Positions 3,125 through 13,340 of a DNA stretch of 32,395 nt are shown here, one piece after another (within the stretch, counting starts at the first letter, position 1; each line of letters begins with the position of its first letter). The notes below the pieces were generated by a model that ran no database searches, was not told the origin of the DNA, and saw only the letters and a program-made list of their open reading frames with translations. The stretch is from positions 1 to 32,395 of the forward strand of contig CAIOZU010000002.1 in NCBI GenBank assembly GCA_903862885.1, given 5' to 3'. A program made the position numbers and the translations under genes. The DNA comes from an uncultured Pseudomonadota bacterium. GTDB taxonomy: Bacteria; Pseudomonadota; Gammaproteobacteria; Steroidobacterales; Steroidobacteraceae.

Positions 3125-5035
3125 TCATCGGGCGCTCTCTGGACTGTTTTTCTCACGCGAGTAGCGGCTGTCGCCGCGAATACTGACGGTCAATATGATG
3201 AGAGAAATGATGGCACCTAAACACAAGTAATAGGCAGGCGCCAAGACAAGCCCCGTACGTGACAGTAGAAAGCTGGCGACCAAGGGTAAGGTGCCACCAA
3301 AGAGACTGACCGACACGTTGTGGCTTAAGGACACGGCCGACACCCTGACTTCTCTTGGGAAAGATTCCACCATATAGGCGGAAAGACCTGATCGCAAAAA
3401 TGCATCAATCGTTGCAAGCCCGCAAGCGGCAAGTGTAATGAAGAGAAGTGATTGACCGGTCATGAGCCAAAATATCGGTAGAACACACAGAGTAAGAGCG
3501 ATGGATGCAACTAATAATGTGGGCTTTCGTCCGAATCGATCCGATACCCAACCAGCGAGGGGATTCATCGCAATTCCACAGCCAATCGCCAAACAGTTGA
3601 GAGCGAGACCGGTGGAGATCGCCACCCCCTGTGTCTGATACAGCCAGATGGGTAAATAGACGAGAAAGATATTAAAAACGATGCCGTTCGGAATGAGGAT
3701 TGCGATCATTTTAAGGATCGCAAGTCGCTCGGTCTTAAAGATTTGTACGATGGGCGCCGTCGATTCGGGATTTGGGAGGCTAATGGGCTCTTCGGCTGGT
3801 AGGCGACTGCGCAGGATGAGGACCACGATGCCTATGACGAGGCCTAACAGGAAAGCGAAGCGCCAACCCCACAGAGACACAGCGGTGTCCGGTAAGGACC
3901 AGCAGACGGCCGCACCGACTCCCGAGGCCAGTAGGGGACCGGCCAGTTGTCCTACCCCTGCGAAGCTGCCCACGAACCCACGTCGACTGGGTAATGCAGC
4001 TTCTACCATGAGGACGACTGAGCTTGTGAACTCACCGCCGACCGCAATACCCTGGGCAAATCGCAGCAGCACAAGCAAGAGAGGCGCCAGAACCCCAATC
4101 TGAGCATAGGTTGGCAGGAAAGCCATTAAGGTGGTCGCAGTTCCCATGAGTAGCACGGAGTGAATGGTCGCTCGACGCCGGCTGTGGCTGTCGCCCACAT
4201 AGCCAAGTAGAACGGCCCCTAGGGGCCGGCCAATGAAGCCAATGGCAAACACCCCAAGCGCCGCGAGCAAGGACGTGGCTGGATCCTCCGTGGGAAAAAA
4301 GAGTCGGCCCATGGTGGCGGCGAAATAGCCATAGATACCGAAGTCGTACCATTCCATTATGTTGCCGCTCAAGCCCGCGATAATGGTGTTGCGCTCAACG
4401 GTGCGAACCTCCGAATTGAGCGTTCGAGCGCTGCGCACGATTTGCGCTCCGATTAGATCCATCCCGCTGATCAGCTCAATGCGGCTGCGCACCTGTTCGA
4501 GCTGTTGTGGCTTAAAAAATCGATCAAATAACAGGCAGTCATCGGCGAGTGCAGTCAATACGACGTCCCGTGGGCTAGGAATATCGTTGCTGAGGAGAAC
4601 CGCAATCACTCGTCTCTTTGCCTCGACTTGTTCTTGTCCATCCGCTACCGGGTAGAGACGATCTTTCATTACCCATAGGAAACTGGAGTCAACTTGATGT
4701 AGGACCCCTTTATCGCACAGGGACGCCACGGCCGATTGCTGCATGGCATGGGCGCGTCGCGCCAGACGCTTAATCCAGAGCTTCGTGTCTAGCCTTCGGG
4801 TTTCGGCGGCTATGTCGGCCAGCACCTTATCTAGGATGGGGTGTCCTAGCGGGGTGGGATCGACCACCCAGAGCGCGTTGATATCGGAATCAATGCGCCC
4901 CTGGAGGGCTAAATCCATGAGTGCGGCGCCGGCGATGCCGCAGGCCATATGGACCTCCGGGATTTGCTCAAAGTGGCCACCTTCATCCTGAAGAGACAGC
5001 AGCACAAACTCTTCTAGGAGGGTGTACGAGGTCAT
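3125..5035 (-). CDS. GPP34 (GOLPH3-like) domain fused to an MHS-family MFS transporter
   Basis: This is a 636-residue two-part protein. Residues about 1-200 fit the GPP34/GOLPH3 domain: LLEEFVLLSLQDEGG at the start, then GIAGAALMDLALQGRI, VVDPTPLGHPILD, and a late RLYPVAD segment. Residues about 215-625 are a 12-helix major facilitator with the metabolite:H+ symporter signature (NIMEWYDFGIYGYFA) and the RFAQGIAVGGEF motif. In eukaryotes GOLPH3 binds phosphatidylinositol-4-phosphate at Golgi membranes; bacterial GPP34 proteins are mostly soluble and uncharacterised. MHS transporters move metabolites such as citrate, ketoglutarate, proline or betaine with protons. The loop after helix 2 has GDSHSRRRA in place of the usual GDxxGRR. 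The ATG is supported by GGAG six bases upstream. The gene stands alone; substrate and the role of the cytoplasmic domain are unknown. Confidence 0.85.
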   Translation of the reverse strand: MTSYTLLEEFVLLSLQDEGGHFEQIPEVHMACGIAGAALMDLALQGRIDSDINALWVVDPTPLGHPILDKVLADIAAETRRLDTKLWIKRLARRAHAMQQSAVASLCDKGVLHQVDSSFLWVMKDRLYPVADGQEQVEAKRRVIAVLLSNDIPSPRDVVLTALADDCLLFDRFFKPQQLEQVRSRIELISGMDLIGAQIVRSARTLNSEVRTVERNTIIAGLSGNIMEWYDFGIYGYFAATMGRLFFPTEDPATSLLAALGVFAIGFIGRPLGAVLLGYVGDSHSRRRATIHSVLLMGTATTLMAFLPTYAQIGVLAPLLLVLLRFAQGIAVGGEFTSSVVLMVEAALPSRRGFVGSFAGVGQLAGPLLASGVGAAVCWSLPDTAVSLWGWRFAFLLGLVIGIVVLILRSRLPAEEPISLPNPESTAPIVQIFKTERLAILKMIAILIPNGIVFNIFLVYLPIWLYQTQGVAISTGLALNCLAIGCGIAMNPLAGWVSDRFGRKPTLLVASIALTLCVLPIFWLMTGQSLLFITLAACGLATIDAFLRSGLSAYMVESFPREVRVSAVSLSHNVSVSLFGGTLPLVASFLLSRTGLVLAPAYYLCLGAIISLIILTVSIRGDSRYSREKNSPESAR

Positions 5036-9749: not shown

Positions 9750-10164
9750 AAAAGGTGTTCGCTCGCTGGCCCAGAAGATGGCGTCAGTGTCGCATGCAGA
9801 CGCCCTGAGCGGCCAGCGATTGCAAGAGAGGCGTCTGCTGTCGGCCGTATTAGACTTAAGTCATTAGCAAAATCAATTACTTAATGCTGCCTATATCCTA
9901 TCATGGATTGGCCCACGCGCACCGCACTTCGCTCGCTGGCGCGTTGGGTAAATGCCGTCATGGGCCACCCGCTCTACCGACTGTGGCCGCACTGGCATGG
10001 CACCCGCCTCAGTGGCATGGTGTACGCTTTGCGCGTCACGGCGTATCCGCCACCTCGTTGGGCGGCAGTCGCCTAGCCGCTTTGCTTGAGAAGCGCCCTC
10101 ACGATGAGGGTGACAGGGGTGACGGGCGATTTTTCGACGTATGAGTGGGCGTATTGGAGAATTT
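9750..10164. other. Intergenic region with unsupported small reading frames
   Basis: Two overlapping small frames exist: 9884-10144 (86 residues) and 9903-10076 (57 residues, starting MDWPTRTALRSLARW). Neither has a ribosome site or a match I recognise. An AT-rich patch at 9850-9900 is the likely site of divergent promoters for trhO and the EF-hand gene, but no clear -35/-10 pair can be assigned. Confidence 0.4.
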
Positions 10165-12495
10165 ATGTCGGCGTATGAACCGGTCATCAGCAAAGCCGAC
10201 ATGGTCAATTTGCATGCCGCTTTTCGATTTTTTGATGTCGATCAGAATGAGCAGGTCACCGTCTCTGATCTCGAATCCTCAGTCGTTGATGCGCTCCACC
10301 AGAACCTCACGGACGGCCAGCTGCATGCCATGATTCAAGAGGTCAGTGCCGAGTCCGCGGAGGTGGGCTCGTTTGATGTGTACGACTTCATTAGCTACGC
10401 CCTGTCGAGGCGTGTGGACGGTTTAAATCGGTTGCAGACCGCTTTCAACTACTTTGACCACGACAAAGATGGTCGGATCACCCTGGCGGATATGCGTCGT
10501 GACAGCGCCAATAAGGAGCTATCAGACAAGGAACTAGCCGATATTTTTGCAGAAGCGGATGTGGGCGGCAATGGCTGGCTAGATTTCGACGCATTCTGTC
10601 GGCCTGTGCATCATTACTACAGCGCTACCCAGTTAGCCGATGCCGCGCCAGAGTCAGCAGCTCAGGTGCAGCAATCGGCTTTTGAAGGAACGCCAGAGGA
10701 CGCCGCAGAGACACCCGTCGCACTCAGTCATTCGGCGGCTCGTTCTGCCACAGCCGATGACATCAAGCAAAGAGGCTCGTCTTTACTGCAAGTGCAGATC
10801 GGTTTATTTCGGCTCATTCAAGGGGCTGCTTATCGGTGCTTCCGTGCGAGTTTTTCAGCGAATCATGCGACCCATCTGCCCGTTAAGGATTTGCCTTATC
10901 GTATTAGCGACTTCGTGCGGTTCGTCGACATTGCAATCTCGTTTTATAAAAGTCTAGGGGTCGTAAGTGCTGATTGCTACCCGCTTCTAGATGCGCTCCC
11001 TGAGTCGCTAAGGGCGGAGCAGAACCGCCTTGAGGAGCGCATACGCAATTGGCAAACGATCGACAAGTCGCCGGAAATGCTCTCCGCCTTCCATGCAGCC
11101 AGTGCTGCATCGACGCATGCGAGCGCCGCACGAGCAAAGTTTGTGAAAATGGTTGAGCAAGCGCTAGCTAAAAACAAGACGACCCTCGAGTTCATGGATC
11201 TCATCAATGAAGTCTTGATGCGTGGTGAAATGCATCGACTTCGCGAAGCCGAAGGGCGGGGCAGTGTTTCAAGTTCAACTCCGGTGAACGATACCGAGGC
11301 GCGCGCTTACCTGCGCACCTGGAACAAAGTCATCTTGCAGGACGCGCTGGAGACAGTCGATGGTGCGCTCATGCCGGTTGCGTATTGGTATGAAGATTTT
11401 ATGCCCAAATTATTGACCGCCTTCAGCGTGAGTAATGCCGCCGATATAGCTGACAATGTACAGCCCAACGAACGTGCGTTGTCTGACTGGGTAGTCGCCG
11501 CCGAAGCGGCGGGTGAGTTTGAGCGCTATGGATCCGCGATCCCGGCGGCGTTTAAAACGGCAACCGCTGACGAGAAGTTGCGCATACGCCAAGCGTGGCG
11601 TCTCACTCGACATTATCTTAATGGTATACAGAAGCGGCGGGAGCGTGCCGAAATGGGGCGGGATAGCGGCGCCTTGTCGCAATATGTAGCCTTCACTGAC
11701 GTCTATTTTGGTCAGAGTTTTGTGCGCGACGCGGATATGCGCGTCTCTTTTCCTTATTATGTGGGACCGGCTGTGTGGCGCTTCTTGCATACGGCCGCTG
11801 AGATTGCGGCATCCCAGCCGTTAGCTCAACAGGCTGCCGTGGTGGATGGCTTTAAAGAATTTTTTTCAGTGTTCGCCAAGCTGTATCCGTGTCCATATTG
11901 TCGACATCATCTAAACGCTTATGTTGTGCGAAATGTTGAGATTAATATGTACCCGCTCGAGTACATTCTTCTCGGTCGAAATCTGAGTGACTCGCGATTA
12001 CGTATGGATATTGCCGACAAATTAGCGACCGTGTTAGATGGCGCTAGCCTACGACTGTTTCTGTGGAAGCTGCATAACACGGTGTCTTCTTCCATATCGC
12101 GCTCTGAGGAATGGTATCAACAGAACGATGCCGCATTTTATACGACTCGCTTCTGGCCTAACATCGAATCAGAGCTGGCGCGCGCTCATCTATTTGGACA
12201 GGAGAGTATTAGTGCTGCGCGTACACGACAGATATTTGAAATCTTTAAGCCGCTGTCTAGGCTGTCATTTATTCGTAGCGAGTTGCACAAAATCTTAAGT
12301 ATCGGTGCTGATAACCGACTTAAAAAAGTCTTGACGGGTGCGGATCGACACATCGCTGATCTTGAATCGGCGGTCATTCAGGGTGCGTTTTTGCAAACGA
12401 CCTATCAGTTTGAGGCAGGGCTAGTTGATCCCGAGCCGTCATTTACAAAAGAAGACGAGCTGTTTGCGCGGCACGCAGCGTTTGTTGAGGGTTGA
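10165..12495 (+). CDS. EF-hand calcium-binding domain fused to an Erv/ALR-type sulfhydryl oxidase domain
   Basis: This is a 776-residue protein with no signal peptide. The start at 10165 is chosen over an in-frame ATG at 10141 because GGAG sits five bases upstream. Residues about 14-150 look like calmodulin: two clear EF-hand loops (24-35, DVDQNEQVTVSD; 98-109, DHDKDGRITLAD) and two degenerate ones (about 58-70, and 132-143 lacking the final acidic ligand). Residues about 150-520 are helical and unrecognised. Residues about 530-645 carry the Erv/ALR pattern: VWRFLH (Trp538, His542), YPCPYC (Cys576, Cys579) and KLHNTV (His637), matching the FAD-binding and redox-active positions of that family. 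Erv enzymes oxidise thiols to disulfides and pass electrons to oxygen. Only five cysteines are present (145, 225, 271, 576, 579), so no second CxxC shuttle exists. It is followed after 20 bp by acetolactate decarboxylase. Domain calls are strong; the biological role is unknown. Confidence 0.8.
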   Translation: MSAYEPVISKADMVNLHAAFRFFDVDQNEQVTVSDLESSVVDALHQNLTDGQLHAMIQEVSAESAEVGSFDVYDFISYALSRRVDGLNRLQTAFNYFDHDKDGRITLADMRRDSANKELSDKELADIFAEADVGGNGWLDFDAFCRPVHHYYSATQLADAAPESAAQVQQSAFEGTPEDAAETPVALSHSAARSATADDIKQRGSSLLQVQIGLFRLIQGAAYRCFRASFSANHATHLPVKDLPYRISDFVRFVDIAISFYKSLGVVSADCYPLLDALPESLRAEQNRLEERIRNWQTIDKSPEMLSAFHAASAASTHASAARAKFVKMVEQALAKNKTTLEFMDLINEVLMRGEMHRLREAEGRGSVSSSTPVNDTEARAYLRTWNKVILQDALETVDGALMPVAYWYEDFMPKLLTAFSVSNAADIADNVQPNERALSDWVVAAEAAGEFERYGSAIPAAFKTATADEKLRIRQAWRLTRHYLNGIQKRRERAEMGRDSGALSQYVAFTDVYFGQSFVRDADMRVSFPYYVGPAVWRFLHTAAEIAASQPLAQQAAVVDGFKEFFSVFAKLYPCPYCRHHLNAYVVRNVEINMYPLEYILLGRNLSDSRLRMDIADKLATVLDGASLRLFLWKLHNTVSSSISRSEEWYQQNDAAFYTTRFWPNIESELARAHLFGQESISAARTRQIFEIFKPLSRLSFIRSELHKILSIGADNRLKKVLTGADRHIADLESAVIQGAFLQTTYQFEAGLVDPEPSFTKEDELFARHAAFVEG

Positions 12496-12515
12496 GTGTC
12501 GTTTAAGGAGACGGC

Positions 12516-13340
12516 TTGTCTTTTTTTGCGGCTGAGGTAGGCCGTGTTGAGGTGATTGGCGATCGTAGCGGAGACCCGACAAATGATGGCGGTGGATGTG
12601 AGGTGAGCAGTCAAGACCACGGACCTATTTTTATGGTGAGTCCGATTAATGCTCTTTTGGAAGGTCTTTATGAGACCCCACTCACGCTGTTCGAACTCGC
12701 TAAGCACGGTGACTTTGGTATCGGCACCTTTAACGATCTTGATGGCGAGATGTTGCGGGTTGACGGGGTCACCTACCAATTAGATTTAGACGGTCAGGCG
12801 CATCAGCCGCCGCTGCACACCGGTACGCCATTTGCGGCTGTCTGCAAATTTAAGCCTTATGCGAGTGAGCCGCTGGCGGCGCTTAGCGGTCACGTCGCGC
12901 TCGAAGCGCATCTAGATCAATGTCTGCTCTCGCGCAATATGATGTTTGCAATCCGGGTGGATGCGCGATTCTCGTGGGTGCGCACCCGGTCAGTGCCAAA
13001 AACCCATAATTACACACCGTTAGTTGAGGCCACAGCTCTGCAGAAAGTCACGGATTTTAAAAATATCAGTGGAACGATGGTTGGCTTTTATACGCCTGCG
13101 TTCATGCCGAGTATTAATGTGCCCGGTTATCACTTTCATTTTATTTCACAGGACCGACTGCATGGCGGGCATCTTTTTGATTTTGAACTTATTGAGGGTC
13201 AGGTGTCCTTGCAGTTGTGTTCGCAACTCGTGCTTAACTTGCCAATGACTACCGACTATTTGGGCGCTGAATTTTTGAGAGACGCGCGTGCGGATATTGA
13301 GAAAGCATTCCGCGCGCCGGGGGTGGAATCGTCGGGATAA
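12516..13340 (+). CDS. budA: Alpha-acetolactate decarboxylase
   Basis: Alpha-acetolactate decarboxylase converts 2-acetolactate to acetoin, diverting pyruvate-derived carbon into a neutral overflow product. The 274-residue protein has the family opening SPINALLEGLYETPLTLFEL with HGDFGIGTFNDLDGEM, and the zinc site PGYHFHFISQDRLHGGH. His206, His208 and His219 have the same spacing as the zinc ligands of the Brevibacillus enzyme. The start is taken as TTG at 12516 because AAGGAG lies five bases upstream. An ATG about 39 codons later would begin right at the conserved domain but lacks such a site. It lies 20 bp after the EF-hand/Erv gene, so the two are probably co-transcribed. No acetolactate synthase or acetoin reductase gene is in the window. 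Confidence 0.92.
   Translation: MSFFAAEVGRVEVIGDRSGDPTNDGGGCEVSSQDHGPIFMVSPINALLEGLYETPLTLFELAKHGDFGIGTFNDLDGEMLRVDGVTYQLDLDGQAHQPPLHTGTPFAAVCKFKPYASEPLAALSGHVALEAHLDQCLLSRNMMFAIRVDARFSWVRTRSVPKTHNYTPLVEATALQKVTDFKNISGTMVGFYTPAFMPSINVPGYHFHFISQDRLHGGHLFDFELIEGQVSLQLCSQLVLNLPMTTDYLGAEFLRDARADIEKAFRAPGVESSG

Follow-up and report, generated by a model that had tools for sequence, protein, structure and literature searches.

Disulfide formation is normally kept away from the bacterial cytoplasm, and to our knowledge few effectors of bacterial calcium signalling have been defined. EF-hand-gated NADPH oxidases of the NOX5 type combine a calcium sensor with a flavin oxidase in the membrane. In bacteria, fusions of calmodulin-like EF-hands to redox domains are a known theme, and passages of PMC7016017 name thioredoxin, cytochrome, NADPH oxidase, NOS, heme oxygenase and other domains as partners; the main text of that paper, Figure 3E lying outside it, contains no mention of 'Erv' or 'sulfhydryl'. 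Sulfhydryl oxidases typically carry a second (shuttle) cysteine pair which, according to passages of PMC3509050, is not seen in viral Erv enzymes except R596, while QSOX is described in passages of PMC3616962 as combining a thioredoxin fold with a C-terminal Erv domain. The Erv family (PF04777) has been reported in Nostocales and Oscillatoriophycideae, in passages that give no architecture (PMC10598087). Among the literature matches listed, which comprised titles and abstract openings (figures, supplements and subscription papers lying outside), none describes a fusion of EF-hands to an Erv domain, and the family presented here is apparently unstudied. Its gene was found in a stretch of 32,395 nucleotides from an uncultured member of the Steroidobacteraceae; this whole stretch is the window referred to below.

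Gene and domain layout

The reading frame is open on the forward strand from the ATG at 10141 to a stop ending at 12495. A GGAG at 10156-10159 is spaced five bases 5' of the ATG at 10165 and nothing comparable lies ahead of ATG 10141, which makes ATG 10165 the likelier start, in agreement with the earlier note on this DNA. From there the gene (10165-12495, +) encodes 776 amino acids comprising EF-hands, a central helical domain and an Erv domain, an extent supported by near-full-length homologues. Residue numbers are counted here from ATG 10141 and exceed those of the earlier note by 8. The proposal that EF-hands and an Erv domain share one open reading frame was confirmed, as both EF-hand_7 (54.8 bits against a cut-off of 30, E = 1.2e-14) and Evr1_Alr (PF04777; 39.6 bits against 27.6) exceed their curated Pfam cut-offs, and a profile search of the window's genome returned a single Erv1/Alr match, in this frame. 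The layout first proposed omitted a conserved central domain (about residues 210-530). The protein ends in a helical segment (12151-12492, +; residues 671-784) defined from the alignment and the AF2 model. Among the aligned members, 35 in all including two fragments that lack the N-terminus, none has a segment reaching 1.6 (Kyte-Doolittle, 19 residues); this is consistent with the absence of a signal peptide noted earlier, and the best reading is that the protein is soluble and, by prediction, cytoplasmic.

The Erv1/Alr domain occupies 11731-12150 (+; residues ~531-670, Pfam match 544-598), and the hallmarks previously picked out, VWRFLH (545-550), YPCPYC (582-587) and LHNTV (644-648), are all present. 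Searching PDB sequences with residues 501-700 (E<=5) gave 13 matches, every one an Erv/ALR enzyme (best E 2.6e-5). A 40-member profile of residues 204-784 gave 11 at E<=1, nine of which were Erv/ALR; two GTP pyrophosphokinases (E 0.22) matched another stretch and were treated as chance. The cysteines of the CPYC redox motif (C584 and C587; 11890-11901, +) are present in all 47 full-length members and kept in all nine divergent rows. W546, H550, H645, N646 and V648 are invariant in the main set, the first four also in the nine divergent rows. The W..H and HNxV positions (H645 and N646 being encoded at 12073-12078, +) line up in the alignment with solved Erv1 sequences, and we take W..H in helix 1 and HNxV in helix 4 to be the FAD-binding residues of the domain.

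The cysteine count covers 46 full-length members plus the window protein, L003, L030, L032, L046 and L052 having been dropped as fragments or interrupted copies. C279 is as invariant as C584 and C587 in these 47 rows, C474 is found in 44 and C731 in 42, and the window protein carries neither C474 nor C731. C279 was considered as a universal catalytic partner and rejected, as five of the nine divergent rows lack it. Across the 47 rows and the nine divergent ones, we found neither a second CxxC nor a shuttle cysteine pair that is conserved.

AF2 (35 rows) predicted helices at 543-558, 561-581, 587-597 and 634-655, a succession that we take to be the order of an Erv core. Model confidence was moderate (mean pLDDT 69.9 at full length with 35 rows; 71.7, with pTM 0.79, for residues 204-784 with 40 rows), and pLDDT falls to 50-58 at the CxxC and immediately after it. 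Comparing the 204-784 model with the PDB using Foldseek gave a best E of 0.6, with no Erv structure in the best 50 of 59 matches. The structural match to Erv1/ALR that the earlier note proposed to look for was thus not obtained with this model. The Erv assignment is carried by sequence, and support for the fold consists of the predicted helix pattern and the sequence profiles.

Calmodulins align with residues 15-155 (best E 1.6e-14). EF-hand loop 3 (DHDKDGRITLAD; 10456-10491, +; residues 106-117) is canonical and matched by Pfam EF-hand_7, EF-hand_6 and EF-hand_1, while in loop 1 (DVDQNEQVTVSD; 10234-10269, +; residues 32-43) the sixth position holds Glu where Gly is usual; of the two loops earlier called clean, only loop 3 fully deserves the description. 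The two hands reported as degenerate could be located, EF-hand 2 at 10345-10386 (+; residues 69-82), which is canonical in most cyanobacterial members, and EF-hand 4 (DVGGNGWLDFDA; 10558-10593, +; residues 140-151). Rather than four canonical calcium loops, the window protein thus has two by a relaxed pattern and one by a strict pattern, the latter because loop 1 lacks the usual Gly at position 6. Four relaxed loops occur in 22 of 35 family rows and five in one row, where one of the five is probably chance; the window's EF module is among the more eroded copies in the family. Using the full-length model, the best 50 of 685 Foldseek matches in the PDB were EF-hand proteins, nearly all calmodulin. 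The fusion protein stays under the cut-off of every NCBIfam model; on the EF part of a Nostoc copy (L007) the XopAW effector model reaches 71.1 bits where its cut-off is 120, which was taken as general EF-hand likeness.

Distribution and history of the family

The earlier note had suggested searching genomes for the same architecture, and one scan of species genomes recovered 51 loci, mainly from cyanobacteria, encoding a family of ~780 amino acids. By record title 46 are cyanobacterial (Nostoc, Microcoleus, Scytonema, Calothrix, Synechococcaceae and others) and five are proteobacterial (L003, L011, L037, L038 and L041); 46 are full length. At E<=0.01, all 35 aligned members have a Pfam match to Evr1_Alr and all but one a match to EF-hand_7; we infer that the exception is L032, a fragment cut short of the EF region. 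Judged from these sequences, the fusion is a conserved family and not a one-off. The earlier note's remark that no described protein is known to join the two domains agrees with the literature matches listed, none of which describes the fusion.

An Erv match was found in 16 of 386 cyanobacterial genomes, one apiece. A Pfam scan of 14 of these (G061 and G066 lying outside it) placed EF-hands over the cut-off in 12, below it in G764 and nowhere in G782. In the window's class, 369 genomes yielded four with an Erv match at E<=0.001; the two that exceed the cut-off, the window's and that of L011, both belong to the fusion family. The matches in G258 and G274 were rejected as members, being below the cut-off (the L068 ORF matches the window protein at E 0.44, L069 gives no match), as was one in G036 (E 5.3e-4) that covers the EF-hand stretch only, residues 92-192. 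In a 398-genome draw of the phylum, a profile of the central and Erv domains matched the window's genome only; the draw did not show other known members. The family is sparse in cyanobacteria and in proteobacteria. Phages and two scans of viral contigs yielded no copies, and a DNA-motif scan match was discarded as a viral copy, being one stretch with only an eight-residue motif in common. A single plasmid copy was found, in Gemmobacter aquarius; it is divergent, annotated 'ERV1/ALR-related protein', and in the region L084 267-10121 it comes after same-strand glycogen/sugar genes for GlgX, an AGE epimerase and a sugar-phosphate nucleotidyltransferase, together with a DJ-1/PfpI gene.

A 56-row tree of residues ~214-784 was drawn with a midpoint root, leaving out L030, L046 and L052. 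L054, which is of the window's genus, groups with the window protein, L003 and L011 (support 100/100), and this clade of four is nested with seven cyanobacteria in a larger one of 11 rows (100/98). Among the four, L054 pairs with L011, whose genome is placed in a different family of the class. The window protein has a long branch (0.75); Gemmobacter and the alphaproteobacterial rows fall elsewhere in the tree, outside this clade. Because the clade sits within the cyanobacterial tree, the window's group most likely acquired the fusion laterally from cyanobacteria, with further transfer between proteobacteria. The distance matrices of the EF, central and Erv parts agree (33 rows, L003 and L032 left out; Mantel r 0.956, 0.876 and 0.907; none of 2000 permutations as high), and the modules therefore travelled together, as one old fusion would give. 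A C-terminal remnant of a second copy, about 55 residues long, lies on contig C63 of G000 (L002, 64-240), with 80% identity to L054 over 41 residues and 38% to the window gene. An NMT1-like gene of the ABC substrate-binding type comes next, and the first bases of the contig resemble, by their motif, the end of an IS3-type transposase.

Thiol oxidation and its possible control by calcium

We consider it fairly probable that the fusion is an FAD thiol oxidase using CPYC, whose activity would be tuned by calcium through the EF module in the four-loop cyanobacterial members. The CPYC pair beside the predicted FAD would accept electrons from a thiol and hand them on to oxygen, forming H2O2, or to another acceptor. 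As the family conserves no shuttle pair, a small thiol or a partner protein would probably meet the CPYC site directly as substrate, selected by the central domain. In the four-loop members, calcium would alter the contact of the EF module with the central/Erv part and so tune activity, the outcome being a calcium-to-redox switch. In the window copy, with about two loops left, such control is probably weaker or lost. We infer calcium gating from the domain layout.

The extent to which calcium matters can be judged from branches in which the loops decay. A deep divergent branch (G731, G697, G764, G782 and Gemmobacter) has at most one recognisable EF loop and has lost C279, and keeps the central and Erv domains with the CxxC, W, H and HN; calcium binding would therefore not be essential for the core function, and branches without the loops speak for calcium as at most a regulator and not part of catalysis. 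The same erosion, which proteobacteria also show with their Erv and central domains retained, fits an active Erv-type flavoenzyme whose EF-hands are structural or serve docking, binding calcium or magnesium constitutively or never, with no gating. So does the pace of change, as the EF part and the C-terminal tail are the fastest-changing (mean distances 0.43 and 0.425, against 0.318 for the central domain and 0.255 for Erv). However, most cyanobacterial members keep canonical ligands in all four loops (four loops in 22 of 35 rows), which a purely structural role would not need, and we regard ungated activity as rather doubtful.

The central helical domain (10768-11730, +; residues ~210-530, from the alignment and AF2 helices) spans ~320 residues with no Pfam match in the window protein or the 35 members, and it contains a number of the blocks that vary least across the family; FRLxQGAxYR, YWYEDFMPKLL and NGxQKRRER are invariant in the 35-member alignment. 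The basic QKRRER block was considered as an internal calmodulin target, an idea left unsupported because the block stays invariant where EF loops have decayed. Against predicted viral structures, Foldseek matched the 204-784 model to Yasminevirus A0A5K0UAY3 (E 8e-18, 722 columns, 20% identity) across the central and Erv parts, with a TM of 0.59 by query length and the next match at E 0.84. In genome G608, four EF-hands are joined directly to an Erv domain without the central domain (L130, 2931-3992, -); its C-terminus is in another frame and the gene is perhaps decaying.

The central domain could itself be the main enzyme, with Erv merely supplying or removing electrons or a disulfide for it. 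Its invariance and lack of a Pfam counterpart would suit such a role, as would the joint match of central and Erv parts to one giant-virus predicted structure and the fact that the sole copy seen without it also has a disrupted C-terminal frame, as though what remains were of little use on its own. Yet neither Pfam nor Foldseek allows a catalytic motif or a fold to be named for it, and Erv domains can bear unclassified extensions, as passages of PMC3509050 describe for mimivirus R596 and others, so that we think this division of labour unlikely.

At the start of the window lie a Coq4-like gene (2-1030, -; truncated by the contig start), which carries HDxxHx11E and an invariant CxxCH and scores 16.7 bits, below the Pfam cut-off of 22.9, and a SLAC1-family transporter gene identified using Pfam (1044-2012, -). 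Genes of both kinds occur within about 9 kb of the fusion in the window, L054 and L011, in three different arrangements. A comparison of 60 related genomes placed close copies of either gene in G000 and G010 alone, the two that carry the fusion. More distant matches were seen to the Coq4-like protein, one in G007 (29%) and one on a different contig of G000 (33%), and to the transporter in G059 (30%). The CxxCH common to the Coq4-like proteins of the window, L011 and L054 falls in an N-terminal region without Pfam family coverage. This proximity, the confinement to the same two genomes and the shared CxxCH would suit an acquired proteobacterial cassette of the three genes, with a role such as the redox chemistry of quinones or sulfur compounds. 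In cyanobacteria (n = 386), however, 31 genomes have a Coq4-like match, 16 have the fusion and one has both, where about 1.3 would be expected, and a partnership as a general rule was rejected. Moreover, a Coq4-like match occurs in 3 of 18 fusion genomes (12 cyanobacterial plus that of L004, and five proteobacterial), one being L011's own; proteobacterial fusion genomes G073, G074 and G076 have none and G075 has a distant one only. The genes are 8-9 kb from the fusion in the window, and the three cases may be mere co-transfer, which makes a functional cassette distinctly improbable.

Other neighbourhood leads were set aside. Gene order around the cyanobacterial copies is conserved among close relatives only and was not used for inference, and a defence-system role was rejected, PADLOC giving no match for the fusion, Coq4-like or transporter protein. 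A terminator-like hairpin (12498-12515, +) directly 3' of the stop, one of 7 such sites in the region against 3.8 expected from shuffles (a weak excess), suggests that the fusion is not co-transcribed with the downstream acetolactate decarboxylase gene. The latter has a TTG start and its only ATG within 60 codons is at 12633; given hairpin and start position, co-transcription was considered unlikely. No neighbour ORF at the other fusion loci compared matches this decarboxylase. Elsewhere in the window, at 3125-5035 (-), Pfam places GPP34 (Golgi phosphoprotein 3) and an MFS transporter in one 636-residue ORF, a pairing that looks unusual for a bacterium.

Finally, a flavin-free or dead, purely structural Erv-like domain would fit the unconserved shuttle cysteines and the lack of a fold match to solved Erv structures in the best 50 of 59 matches of the 204-784 model, but is highly improbable given a CxxC kept in 47 of 47 rows and the W, H and HN residues, which do not vary in the divergent rows either.

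Comparison with known systems

We tentatively propose, with less than even confidence, a new and cyanobacteria-centred class of cytoplasmic calcium-gated thiol oxidases, in which a calcium signal would lead to thiol oxidation and H2O2 through a previously unrecognised central helical domain that would also occur in one or more giant viruses. If true, a conserved soluble protein with a calmodulin-like sensor and a thiol oxidase would form a direct calcium-to-redox switch in cyanobacteria, and the family may let calcium control intracellular protein oxidation. The family also brings to light a conserved central domain not described before, whose history may be tied to that of giant-virus proteins. 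The Yasminevirus protein A0A5K0UAY3 has a predicted structure resembling the window's central and Erv model, although the comparison is by predicted structure alone and the viral protein, named 'Histidine kinase' in the database, is much longer at 1140 residues.

With the Erv1/ALR family (PF04777; yeast Erv1, ALR, Arabidopsis Erv1), the fusion shares the CxxC, W..H, HNxV and four predicted helices in order, and it differs in being bacterial and predicted cytoplasmic, in lacking a conserved shuttle pair and in carrying an EF-hand module and a large central domain. Mimivirus R596 and other viral Erv enzymes likewise fuse Erv to a helical domain of unclassified type; passages of PMC3509050 place the R596 extension after Erv, whereas that of the fusion comes before it, and mention no EF-hands for the viral enzymes. 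QSOX is also a multi-domain protein with Erv towards the C-terminus, but the fusion family has no thioredoxin domain match in Pfam and no second conserved CxxC.

The bacterial calmodulin-like fusions of cyanobacteria and proteobacteria covered in passages of PMC7016017 share with the present one the pairing of EF-hands, themselves in pairs, with redox domains; unlike here, Erv is not named among the partners in section 12 of that paper. As in the fusion, the calcium sensor of NOX5-type oxidases is attached to a flavin oxidase expected to generate reactive oxygen. They are, however, membrane NADPH oxidases with an unrelated flavin domain, whereas the fusion is a predicted soluble thiol oxidase.
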